A DNA stretch of 64,000 bases from Candidatus Thiosymbion sp. (GTDB lineage Bacteria; Pseudomonadota; Gammaproteobacteria; Chromatiales; Chromatiaceae). Below the pieces are notes generated by a model that was given only the letters and a program-made list of their open reading frames with translations, ran no database searches and was not told where the DNA came from. This document shows positions 44,660 to 56,782 of the stretch, piece by piece. The position numbers and the translations under genes were made by a program. The stretch's first letter is position 1, and each line of letters starts with the position of its first letter. The stretch lies in NCBI GenBank assembly GCA_018435665.1, contig JAHDND010000007.1, forward strand, positions 62,001-126,000, written 5' to 3'.

Positions 44660-47635
44660 TCAATCCCCCTCTTCAAACTCCGCATTCTTGAACTTCAGGG
44701 TGCGGCAGTTTTCCCTGACGGCCCGTTGCAGGTCAGCATCGAAGCCCAAGCCGGATTCGGCCTGGATTTCCACGCTGATCTTGACCTTCACGCCCATGCG
44801 GGTCGTGAACTGCTGGACCACCTCGTCCACCAGGTCGGCGAATTGCTTCTTGGCCAGGATGGGGTCGAGGTCGATGCCGCCGTAGAACCGCTTCTTGGGG
44901 CTCGGCACGCCCGCCAGGCCGCCACCGCCGGGGATGGCTCCACCCGGGCCGATGGTTCCACCGCCGGCGGACGCGCCGCCGCCGGGCGTCGTCCCACCGC
45001 CGGACTGGTAGAAACCACGGGTCGGATCACCGACGCCCCGGCCATCCCCTCCTCCCGGATTGGCGCCATCACCACCCTGCCCGTCCCCGATACCTTGTGA
45101 TCCCCAGTCCATCGCGTTTGTCCCGCTCCCTGACCCAGCGGCCGCCGCTGCCCGCTCGGCCGCTAGCAGTGCCGCCACGTAAGCCGCCGCGGCCCCTGGC
45201 TCGATCAGCAGCAAGGCGGCATCCAGGGTGAAGGGGATGCGCTTGCCGAAGCTGAAGCCCAGGTAGCGCACTTCATCACCCTGCCCTTCCTGGCCCTGGG
45301 CGATGGCGAAGAAGTCCCGACTGTCCAGGCCGTCGTTGAGGGTGGCCTGGAAGACCTGGCTGTCCAGCAGGCGAGGCAGGTACAACTGCTGACAGCTCTG
45401 ATGCCAGACGGTCTGGGCACTGACCGCGACCACGCCGTCCTTCCAGAACCAGGTCTTGAGGAGCTGGTGCAGATGGAAGGGCGACCAGGCGGTGATGAGG
45501 AGTTCCTGGTCCTTGAGGACGTGCTCGATCTCCTGGGTCAGGTTCGCCGCCCCGGCGTTGAGAAGGAAGTGCTCCCACTTGACCTCGGACAGGCCCTTGC
45601 GGGGGCTGGCCTCCTGCAGGGGGGACAGGAGCCAGCGGTAGGTCTCGCGCAGCAGGCGCTTGAGGACCTCGAGGTCCTGGTCCAGGCTGGCGCTGGCCTG
45701 CTGGGCCTGGTAGGCGTCCAGATTGAGCTTGAGGTCCTTGATGTCGGCGACGATGGACTGCCAGGCGAGGACGGACCGGACCTGGTCCTTGAGCCGGTTG
45801 CGGCTCTCCTCGTCGGCGGCCAGGAATAGCAGGCGGTTCTGCTTGAAGCGCGGCTGCTCCCCGCGGTTTTTGAGGATGACGCTGGCCAGTTCGGTGGCCA
45901 GGTTGGGGCCGGAGCGACTGAAACCCGCCTCCGGGGGCAGCACCACCAGGCGCAAGGCCCAGTCGTCCGGCACGTCGCCGCTGGGGGTGAAGACATGGAT
46001 GCCGCCAAAGAGGCCGGTGGCCAGGGTCTTCTGCAGGCGCTCGCGGATGGCGGGCACCACGTCCTCCTTGTCGCTGAAGCGGCGCATGCGCTCTTCCTTC
46101 TCCCGACGCAGGTTGGGGCGGGTGTCCAGGTAGTAGCGATGATTGACGCGGTTGAGGTAATGCAAGCGGTCCCCCAAGCGGCGCAGGGCGTCCTTGTAGA
46201 GGCCGACCGCCTGGCCGGGCTGGGCGGCGCCGAGGAGGATGCGCTCGCTCTCGACGCCGCGCACCATCTGGTTGGCGGTGCTGGGGGCGCTGCCGAGGAA
46301 GATGGTGCGGGCGGTACGGCGGCAGGCCTGGAGGGCGCCCAGGCGGGTGTCGGTGCGCTCGATCTCGGTGGTCTCGGCGCGCTCGCCGTCCACGTCGCGC
46401 TCCAGGACCGGGTCCCAGCCCTGGGGCAAGGGGTAGATGGCGACGTTGCGGATGTCGCCGTCGTAGAGGGGCAGGCTGCCAGGGAGGATGAGCAGGTCAT
46501 TGTTCCCGTCCTGCCACAGGCGATGGATGACCTTGGCCATCAGCTTGAGCACCCCGCGGGTGCGCTGGAAGTTGTCCAGGCTGGACCAGTCCTCGTAGAG
46601 GCGGTCGAAGACCTCGGGGTGGATGGGATAGGCGCGCAGCAGGCGCTGGAAGTAGTGGCTGTCCTGGGTCTCGGCGGGGAAGTCGGCGCGGTTGGCGGTG
46701 TAGAAGTCGGCGAAGGCGCGGCACACCGCCTCCGCCGCCTCGGGCTGGGCGACGGCGCGGAACAGCCGGCGCCGGACGATCTCGAAGGCCTCCTCGGTGG
46801 CCACCGGCTTCCACAGGGCCTGGACCCGGCCGAAGTAGTGCTTCAGGGATTCCAGGGCCTTGACCCCGCGCTGGCTGCCGGCCTCGCGTTCCGACTCCGG
46901 CAGGGAGGCGAGCATGACGGCGGTGGGCACCGCCTTGAGGGCCTCGGTGAGGGCCTGGATGAAGGACAGATTGGAGTCGAAGGTGCCGCCGCGCAGGGGC
47001 TTGCCCTCCTCGAACTGACGCACGTAGGCCACCAGCTCATCCACCAGGATGACGCAGGGGGCGTAGGTGGCCAGCAGGGTCTCCAGGCTGGCCTTGCCCG
47101 GGGAGGTGCCGGAGGCGTCGGCGTCCGCCACCAGGGCATAGCCCGCGGCCCCGCCCAACTGCCAGGCCAGGTCGCCCCAGAGGGTGTTGAGCGCCTGTCC
47201 CTCGCGGACCAGGGGCTGGTTGGGGGAGGACTGGTTGCCGTCCAGGACCACCACCCGCGCCCGGGGCAGGGTGGTGACCCCGGCGGCGTCGAGGAGGGCG
47301 GAGACCCCGGGGAGGTCGCTGGCCGGGACCTGGGCACTGGCGAGGTGATAGACCGCCAGCTCGGTATGGGTCTTGCCGCCACCAAAGGCGGTCTGGAGCT
47401 GGATGACCGGGTCGCCCCCGCGGCCGGTGAGGCGGTGGAGCACCGAGTCGAACAGCAGGCGCATGCCCTCGGTGATGTAGGTGCGCTGGAAGAACAGCAC
47501 CGGGTCCTGGTACTCCGGCGTGGCCTTGCCGGCATGGACCCGGGACAGGTCGGCGGCGAACTCGGCCTGCTGGAAGGTGCCTTTGAGCACGTCCTCGTGG
47601 GGGACGGCGATCTCGCGCCAGGGCTTCAGAGTCAT
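44660..47635 (-). CDS. DUF499-type AAA+ ATPase of a helicase-methylase-ATPase defence-like locus
   Basis: 991 aa. An N-terminal AAA+ domain carries Walker [16 protein letters not shown] (Lys88) and Walker [13 protein letters not shown] (Asp199-Glu200). The opening [30 protein letters not shown] is typical of DUF499 proteins, which co-occur with DUF1156 methylases in anti-phage islands. The helical middle has no motif I can name. Residues ~836-910 are a Gly-rich low-complexity linker (repeated GGG, GDG, PGGG), followed by a compact C-terminal domain ([27 protein letters not shown]). It is last in the minus-strand cluster, 10 nt after the DUF4276 gene. Its role in defence is by association with its neighbours. 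Confidence 0.8.
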
Positions 47636-47644
47636 AGCGTTACC

Positions 47645-56200: not shown

Positions 56201-56782
56201 GTTGCCGCCGCGGGTCTGCTCGACCAGCTCGCGGGAGAAGAGGGCGAAGGTCAGGCCGAACTTTTCCGCCAGTTCGTCCTGCCACTGCTCGACCAGGCTA
56301 CCCGGGGCGACGATGAGGACGCGGCGGGCGTCGGCGCGTAGGTCCAGCTCGCGGATGTAGAGGCCGGCCATGATGGTCTTGCCGGCGCCGGGGTCGTCGG
56401 CGAGGAGGTAGCGCAGGGGCTGGCGCGGCAGCAGGGATTCGTAGACGGCGGTGATCTGGTGCGGCAGGGGTTCGACGTTGGCGGTGTGGATCGCCATCAG
56501 GGGGTCGAAGAGGTAGGCCAGGTCGATGCGGTAGGCCTCGGCGGCGAGCTTGAAGGCCGCGCCGGAGGCGTCAAAGGCCCAGGGCCGGCCGGCGACCGCC
56601 AGGTCGAGCAGGGGCTCGTCGCTACGAAACAGCATACGCTCGCGCACCTGACCGGCAGGGGTCTTGTAGTAGACGGTGCGGGCGTCGGGGCCGACGGCCT
56701 CGGTGGTGACGATGCGTACCACCTGGCACGGTTCCAGGCCGGTGACCGCGGCGTTGGGGGTGAGGTCTTCCAGGCGGAGCAT
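53216..56782 (-). CDS. SNF2/DEAH-type helicase with C-terminal DUF3883 nuclease-like domain
   Basis: 1188 aa. Helicase motif I is [15 protein letters not shown] (Lys135), motif II is VVVDEAHK (230-233), motif III is [10 protein letters not shown], and the second RecA lobe has [55 protein letters not shown]. This is the SNF2/RapA-like layout used in DISARM-type and helicase-methylase-ATPase loci. The C-terminal ~100 residues match DUF3883, a PD-(D/E)xK-like domain: GWDV with Asp1090, and HLEVKGR with Glu1109 and Lys1111, then TVTCNEI. It is the first large gene of the minus-strand cluster, 58 nt after a small secreted protein gene. Confidence 0.87.

Follow-up and report, generated by a model that had tools for sequence, protein, structure and literature searches.

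The Hma locus and the gap between hmaA and the NYN gene

The DNA analysed here is a stretch of 64,000 nucleotides from Candidatus Thiosymbion sp. (contig JAHDND010000007.1, positions 62,001 to 126,000; hereafter the window). Six genes at 44660–56782 form what is almost certainly an Hma (helicase–methylase–ATPase) system with inserted genes, and the gap preceding one of the inserts, a NYN-domain nuclease gene, appears to hold a small-RNA gene read in the opposite direction. As a preliminary description made from the letters alone had claimed, all six open frames lie on the minus strand in the order and over the span it gave, and Pfam and PADLOC hidden Markov model searches put each protein in the family it had named. 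Its identification of the DUF499, DUF1156 and helicase genes as Hma was borne out by PADLOC scores of 1983.5, 1770.9 and 1477.4 bits for HmaA, HmaB and HmaC, respectively, and the three genes follow the A-B-C order on one strand. The matches are nearly full length for HmaA and HmaB, and the best stretch in HmaC covers residues 1–853 of 991. HmaA (53216–56782, 1188 amino acids) is an SNF2/DEAD helicase (Pfam Helicase_C and SNF2-rel_dom) with the motifs DDPGAGKT at residue 129 and VVDEAH at residue 228; its NOV_C (DUF3883-type) PD-(D/E)XK-like tail, scored at 66.7 bits by Pfam, includes both GWDV (1088) and HLEVKGR (1107), so the nuclease-like tail noticed earlier looks intact and, by appearance, active. 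HmaB (49400–52279, 959 amino acids) is a DUF1156 DNA amino-methyltransferase with DPFAGGG at residue 141 and DPPY at 567, the latter being the amino-methylase motif that upholds the methylase assignment. HmaC (44660–47635, 991 amino acids; Pfam DUF499 107 bits) is a DUF499 AAA+ ATPase, in which a Gly-rich stretch followed by a tail is visible, a C-terminal RRM-like domain being a feature of DUF499 proteins in Type-1 systems.

Between these core genes lie the NYN-domain nuclease (52286–52903, 205 amino acids; Pfam NYN 49.4 bits), which matches the PADLOC model HEC-09, and a gene pair that matches HEC-01: an OLD-like AAA_21 ATPase (48217–49389 from an ATG, the open frame extending to a GTG at 49395) and a DUF4276 protein predicted to have an OLD-type TOPRIM fold (47645–48217 from an ATG, the open frame extending to a GTG at 48253). 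The preliminary description took the tight spacing of the six genes as a sign of one operon. The spacing is indeed tight from NYN through HmaC, with gaps of 6 nt between NYN and HmaB, 9 nt between DUF4276 and HmaC and, between HmaB and the AAA gene, 4 nt if the GTG is taken as the start or 10 nt with the ATG at 49389, and an AAA–DUF4276 overlap of 1 nt (ATG 48217) or 37 nt (GTG 48253). The gap between HmaA and NYN is 312 nt long and contains the opposite-strand small-RNA gene, which the preliminary description overlooked; the one-operon claim is therefore doubtful at this junction.

The only promoter-like site in 52800–53300 is a sigma-70-like promoter on the plus strand (TTGACG-17-CATAAT, 53035–53063), while 50 shuffles of the same region gave a mean of 0.0 such sites. 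It is followed on the same strand by unit 1 of the putative RNA (53072–53136), consisting of a C-rich leader, hairpin 1 and a hairpin 2 that the terminator scan recognised as an intrinsic terminator (stem 53103–53122 plus TCTTTTTG), and by a weaker tandem unit 2 (53138–53205) with its own terminator-like hairpin at 53169–53191. The covariance model of the RNA unit (R1) scored them at 78.6 and 44.5 bits, respectively; unit 1 is in the seed of the model and unit 2 is not. One to three copies of the structured element were found in the hmaA–NYN gap of 20 loci (18 relatives, the window and locus L052), where the best promoter match reached 9–11 of the 12 consensus positions, that of L046 having a poor −10 box. 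Read opposite to NYN, the element comprises a C-rich leader, a hairpin with a variable stem and a conserved loop, a second hairpin and T-rich sequence. Among 24 aligned units, 98.2% of the cells were paired, and two-sided changes were counted in 38 cells versus 8.7 in shuffles (a level reached in none of 500) and no more than 5 with the partners slid, a control biased toward the structure, which was derived from the same 24 units. Counted by pairs the excess is less striking, as 7 of 16 pairs had two-sided changes, where shuffling gave 4.6 and attained that level in 19 of 500 runs. No Rfam family passed its gathering threshold in the window, the best match being Atu_C8 at 23.2 bits (cut-off 50, E 0.04), and the only families to pass in 20 other NYN loci were RNAI and tRNAs, always at places other than the RNA preceding NYN. 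These features suggest that the gap holds a small-RNA gene not described before, with the look of an RNA antitoxin. Among the open-literature matches listed, no title or abstract linked an RNA antitoxin to NYN; an earlier mention of the RNA may exist in the preprint in which HEC-09 was defined.

The protein beside it matched the HEC-09 model over its full length (319.8 bits, 1–203 of 203), and Pfam found NYN alone in it. In an alignment of 36 sequences, D9, N12, E105, K106, D109, D134 and D136 were invariant, and the structure model (pLDDT 87.7) had its best PDB match in 2qip (E 3.2e-10). The RNA might act as a type I-like antisense repressor by pairing with the NYN mRNA, and inspection showed that the 3′ arm of hairpin 1 in the window could pair with GGAGAT ahead of the NYN start. 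Across 24 loci, however, pairing with the NYN start showed no preference for the RNA of the same locus (mean rank 0.43, Wilcoxon p 0.29), and we hold this explanation to be highly improbable.

Association of the RNA with NYN genes

A scan of species genomes for HmaB yielded 346 relatives, and all counts of Hma loci are based on the best 80 of these. The RNA, taken as an R1 match of at least 30 bits, was present in each of the 23 Hma loci with NYN or a NYN remnant versus 1 of the 57 others, seven of which were unreadable in the A-B interval; 16 of these 24 RNA-positive loci had supplied seed units to R1 and eight had not. A similar picture emerged from the NYN tree, where the clade including the window (28 rows, SH-aLRT 84) had an R1 match in 27 of 27 readable rows, among them two pairs with identical NYN (L042/L132 and L077/L136), the 28th row, L158, being cut by a contig edge. 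Three rows of the clade (L133, L135 and L157) and L004, which lies just outside it, carried the RNA in stretches of 3.6–6.6 kb without an Hma match; L004 is near DNA polymerase A, L133 precedes LpxK and L157 precedes an MmeI-type restriction gene. On this evidence, the RNA gene and its tie to NYN are quite probably real. As a separate observation, the Thermus oshimai plasmid pTHEOS01 (L154) bears an Hma locus in which NYN and the opposite-strand RNA are intact and hmaB is split by an IS4-family transposase gene.

Loss has been one-way so far. The RNA was kept in six loci where NYN is interrupted (L013), frameshifted (L032, a draft genome whose contig ends within the RNA), truncated (L041) or gutted in frame (L050, which is Tepidimonas ignava, L052 and L057), and in four where NYN is absent (L066, L155, L241 and L244), while no intact NYN without the RNA was found in the clade. 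An intact NYN is present in, for example, Azoarcus taiwanensis (L033). Such a pattern of loss is expected if the RNA restrains NYN, though there are only ten cases, of which some may stem from faulty assembly. Conserved pairing and linkage would fit equally well if NYN depended for its activity on the RNA as a positive cofactor or guide. We noticed no variable, guide-like stretch, and ten loci that have the RNA with a broken or absent NYN, set against no intact NYN of the clade lacking the RNA, follow the pattern of a toxin–antitoxin pair, albeit in a small sample; a cofactor or guide role thus appears very unlikely.

The survey was extended to 137 NYN loci, drawn from genome searches (34), plasmid records (5 of 39), phage records (1 of 2), viral contigs (78), Hma loci (18) and the window. 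The viral loci were the best 80 of 117, two of which had no start codon. Three of the 137 rows with less than 120 nt upstream were dropped, and the remaining 134 were reduced to 99 by a crude non-redundancy filter (60 residues, 85%). A strict unit was defined as a T-run terminator within 260 nt upstream together with a second hairpin that ends 0–4 nt ahead of the terminator. It was found at 60 of the 99 NYN loci versus 2 of 470 control ORFs (uncurated ATG frames of at least 200 amino acids; Fisher p 9e-52), and any terminator-like hairpin at 82 of 99 versus 52 of 470. Of these 60 loci, 41 had the strict unit on the NYN strand alone, 18 had it on the opposite strand alone and one had it on both. 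A promoter match of at least 9 of 12 positions preceded 20 of the 41 sense RNAs and 14 of the 18 opposite RNAs, versus 72 of 820 and 25 of 360 shuffles, respectively; the shuffles of promoter sites, like those of the NYN flanks, preserve base composition only.

The prevalence of the sense orientation is what would be expected of a regulatory leader or attenuator, whose terminator limits transcription into NYN without binding any protein. Most hairpin-bearing relatives have the element on the NYN strand, where the terminator stem ends at a median distance of 22 nt from the start codon (75 of 81 within 7–44 nt, among the 134 loci), and a promoter-like site often lies ahead of the sense RNA. On the other hand, the RNA of the window and its clade has a promoter of its own and runs opposite to NYN, which makes attenuation of NYN impossible; hairpin 1 keeps its pairs through two-sided changes and is seldom found at control terminators (2 of 52); and the RNA is retained where NYN is broken or absent. 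Taken together, we consider the leader explanation unlikely.

The opposite-strand RNAs are mainly found in one clade of the NYN tree, which was built from 129 of the 137 rows (150–300 amino acids) with softer strand labels than those of the strict test. Since this clade is nested beside sense-strand phage relatives, the RNA gene appears to have moved to the other strand and kept its NYN partner. A single clade for all 29 rows labelled as opposite-strand was rejected (AU test, p 2.5e-54); the tested group included the weak rows L138, L145 and L208 and omitted L042, L077 and L158, the first two of which had been missed by the terminator filter and were found by R1.

Embedded genes, HEC-01 and flanks

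Hma was named in 2021 from 1,638 instances (PMC8565338) and was described again in 2026 as the Type-1 DUF499-centred BREX-related systems, composed of a helicase-nuclease, an N6-methylase and an ATPase (PMC12839542). According to the latter source, Type-1 loci often have OLD-ABC/TOPRIM pairs, HEPN, PIN-type RNase or Schlafen genes inside or adjoining. The window shares with these systems the three core families, the gene order and the C-terminal nuclease tail of the helicase; it differs in bearing HEC-09 and HEC-01 together and in the short N-terminus of HmaC (FGGGKT at residue 84), in which Pfam gave no HEPN match at E 0.001. From what has been published on these families, the methylase would mark self DNA, and the DUF499 ATPase and the helicase-nuclease would attack unmarked DNA.

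The NYN gene and the AAA/DUF4276 pair had been presented as non-standard members. They are not part of the Hma core, as was said, but PADLOC-DB 2.0 already carries both, as the "Hma-embedded candidates" HEC-09 and HEC-01, and the window proteins give full-length, high-scoring matches to these models. Candidates of this kind stem from the "guilt-by-embedding" preprint (10.1101/2024.01.29.577857, as cited in PMC12988326). The six-gene composite is thus of an already catalogued kind, a known operon with two known inserts, occupying two cargo slots of Hma: HEC-09 between hmaA and hmaB, and HEC-01 between hmaB and hmaC.

Fifteen of the 80 HmaB loci have an unreadable interval. In the 65 that are readable in both, an A-B interval longer than 400 nt was found in 50 and a B-C interval of that size in 42; both stayed at or below this length in 9. 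Clustered inserts, each cluster named by one scanned representative, kept to their slots: NYN/HEC-09 (18/18), Septu PtuA (17/17) and HEC-08 (9/9) were found in A-B, and the HEC-02 ATPase (11/11), PDC-M61 (7/7) and the HEC-01-like ATPase cluster (5/6) in B-C. Of the 17 clusters with at least three members, 15 occupied a single slot, one of them probably spurious (its representative is on the minus strand). The conserved six-gene order that would make the locus one unit did not appear: among the best 80 HmaB loci, with the 15 unreadable intervals included, none had exactly these six genes; in L045 HEC-08 is added to the six, and in L052 each of the six families is represented but NYN is gutted. 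A six-gene unit was ruled out, as related loci retain A-B-C while the cargo swaps. The embedding is of a modular kind, with NYN and HEC-01 each an insert in its own right.

The HEC-01 pair matched both PADLOC models (578.4 bits for the ATPase and 150.2 bits for DUF4276). The ATPase contains GANGTGKST at residue 32, VEEPENQLYP at 300 and STHSPDF at 332. The AlphaFold2 model of the DUF4276 protein (pLDDT 82) gave no Foldseek match at E ≤ 0.001. With VIA-align on the same candidate list, its best match was the OLD C-terminal/TOPRIM region of 6nk8 (Z 11.7, 3.8 Å over 173 residues), and five of the top six rows were OLD proteins, GajA being lower (Z 7.0). Judging from the model, DUF4276 likely has an OLD-type TOPRIM fold, and HEC-01 can be described as a predicted split OLD nuclease made of an ATPase sensor and a TOPRIM nuclease. 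It resembles OLD, Gabija and PARIS in that an OLD-like ATPase goes with a TOPRIM domain of the OLD type, and differs in that these reside in two separate genes and that the ATPase finds its best PADLOC match in HEC-01, not in AriA (578.4 versus 107.6 bits); no AriB match for DUF4276 was among the PADLOC results listed. The ATPase is far more conserved than its surroundings, with 86–87% identity between the window and L045, L048 and L052, against 53–56% for DUF4276 and 72–79% for the Hma core in the window comparisons. L102 is a further locus listed with these three for unusual conservation of the HEC-01 ATPase.

Several features flank the locus. Upstream of hmaA, a small minus-strand frame (56840–57150) has a signal-like start and, by eye, three copies of CPPGYYSSGNYC. 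The segment 57900–61600 is a block of about 48% G+C in a window of 61–72% G+C; it adjoins tRNA-Leu (61857–61943), carries genes for a GH5 cellulase, an SbmA/BacA-like ABC transporter and a member of the exo/endonuclease/phosphatase family, and looks recently acquired. Downstream of hmaC, the segment 42127–44450 contains an S24 peptidase-like frame on the minus strand and, on the plus strand, an overlapping WYL/WCX regulator and a PBECR2 phage nuclease-family protein, possibly further defence or prophage genes.

Proposed action of the NYN/RNA pair

We propose that HEC-09 is a module of two components, in which the NYN nuclease is joined by a small-RNA gene of divergent orientation. The RNA would be transcribed from a promoter of its own and consist of one to three two-hairpin units with intrinsic terminators at their ends; it would bind NYN and hold it inactive, as do the RNA antitoxins of type III toxin–antitoxin systems and of AbiF. 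If a phage stopped host transcription, the RNA would decay and NYN would be freed; it would then cut RNA and abort the infection, as a back-up should the Hma core fail. A phage carrying the RNA by itself would be shielded. For the central step, restraint of the NYN nuclease by the small RNA, we see the case from the sequences as evenly balanced. The wider proposal, that a widespread NYN family is neutralised by cognate two-hairpin RNAs, which would make up a new RNA-antitoxin family of chromosomes and of prophages or phages, that one flipped lineage of it became the Hma insert and that an RNA carried alone by a free-living phage is a decoy, is more tentative, and we regard it as possible rather than probable.

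Several observations weigh against these ideas. The RNA of the window lies on the strand opposite to NYN, unlike in type III loci. The strict unit is missing from 39 of the 99 NYN loci, 17 of which have no terminator-like hairpin in 260 nt, and a first hairpin also arose in 182 of 1800 shuffled flanks (10%). Sense and opposite RNAs share an architecture, not a sequence, and R1 scores the sense RNAs weakly or not at all; what we propose for the two is a likeness in plan, and common descent is not claimed. In Pseudomonas strains, HEC-09 was reported to correlate with phage susceptibility and not with resistance (PMC12447246). Members of the NYN family also sit on plasmids of 3.5–4.2 kb in Enterobacteria, where L150 has a terminator-like hairpin before NYN and lacks the strict unit, and L152 has neither; because both fail the strict unit, these small-plasmid loci were not counted as paired with an RNA. 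One such locus was found at an identity of at least 99% in 12 of 5,426 E. coli genomes, always plasmid-borne. Furthermore, the RNA is not exclusive to NYN. The R1 search of 369 genomes found an RNA place of at least 45 bits in six: two are Hma loci with NYN (one being the window), two are Hma slots without NYN and two lie elsewhere. Where an Hma slot has the RNA without NYN (L066, L241 and L244), the RNA could belong to the slot, and the two copies that lie elsewhere (L115/L242 and L117/L243; 70.3 and 56.9 bits) are away from both NYN and Hma. Weaker matches were more common, 75 of the 369 genomes having some, mostly weak, match at E ≤ 0.01. The strong match in G342 (L113) is no such exception, its 14.8 kb context being the A-B slot of a divergent Hma locus. 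By eye, L115/L242 adjoins a WD40-like gene and L117/L243 lies just upstream of a tRNA-Glu-like sequence.

Copies of the RNA were also found in phages. A 24-nt core pattern of the window-type RNA (18 fixed bases) occurred in 18 viral stretches, while one permuted control pattern occurred in none, and the full model scored the 18 copies at 46–83 bits. Neither NYN nor Hma was matched in the 4–14 kb examined per contig (18 contigs). Phage genes on these contigs encode a baseplate wedge and tail lysozyme (L239), a terminase (L238), Rz-like spanins (L249 and L256) and a virion protein (L251). The independent cases are fewer than 18, as L249/L250, L256/L257, L245/L255, L238/L240 and L247/L251 share their contexts. 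In the 209-kb Dolichospermum phage Dfl-JY45 (L259), a copy with 80% identity lies between two hypothetical genes. By analogy with phage PhiTE, which bears a pseudo-ToxI RNA against ToxIN (PMC3475682), the phage copies may be decoys. A terminator role is equally open, because most of them sit directly 3′ of a gene, in a terminator-like place, which also counts against the proposal.

These copies raise the question of whether the element is simply a dispersed double-hairpin terminator or stand-alone small RNA, brought next to NYN by hitch-hiking. The lack of NYN at the 18 viral stretches and at two chromosomal sites speaks for this, as does the position of most phage copies immediately behind a gene. 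Against it stand the distribution of the RNA in Hma loci (23/23 with NYN or a remnant versus 1/57 without) and in the NYN clade (27/27), its presence beside NYN even where no nearby Hma gene was found, its promoter-like sites, and its placement directly upstream of NYN, with the 5′ end of the RNA about 20–170 nt away. We therefore judge a dispersed element without a tie to NYN to be a distinctly unlikely explanation.

Returning to restraint of NYN by the RNA, the closest working parallels would be type III toxin–antitoxin systems and AbiF/RCd22. The former (ToxIN, CptIN and TenpIN; PMC5086642) likewise have an RNA gene with an intrinsic terminator by an RNase-type gene, sometimes with tandem units, and phage-borne mimics of the ToxIN RNA recall the phage copies seen here. 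The window differs in its NYN/PIN-like protein, in an RNA of two plain hairpins with no pseudoknot seen, and in the opposite orientation of the RNA in its clade. In type III loci, the RNA and the toxin are co-transcribed with a terminator between them, while the RNA of the window has its own plus-strand promoter-like site; an RNA–terminator–NYN layout does occur in the sense-strand relatives, as in 41 of the 99 loci with strict units on the NYN strand only and one with both. Nor does the protein belong to the ToxN, CptN or TenpN families, as shown by its single Pfam match and the resemblance of its fold to 2qip. Because it lacks these two defining features, the module was not classed as type III. 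AbiF/RCd22 resembles it in having an RNA of about 100–130 nt with its own promoter and terminator upstream of a gene for a toxic protein; this prophage-borne RNA neutralises AbiF by direct binding (PMC12373285). The protein (Abi_2/AbiD/F) and the RNA family (Rfam RF03085) are unrelated to those of the window.

The PADLOC model of HEC-09 is protein-only, whereas in the window an RNA lies next to NYN and may act as its partner. If this partnership is real, HEC-09 would be a two-component RNA–protein module and not a lone nuclease, and assays in which NYN alone was cloned could have overlooked or wrongly judged the module. Such a pair would also add a toxin fold to the RNA-neutralised systems, provide a natural example of an RNA gene that switched strand while its partner was kept, and point to phage RNAs as possible anti-defence decoys.

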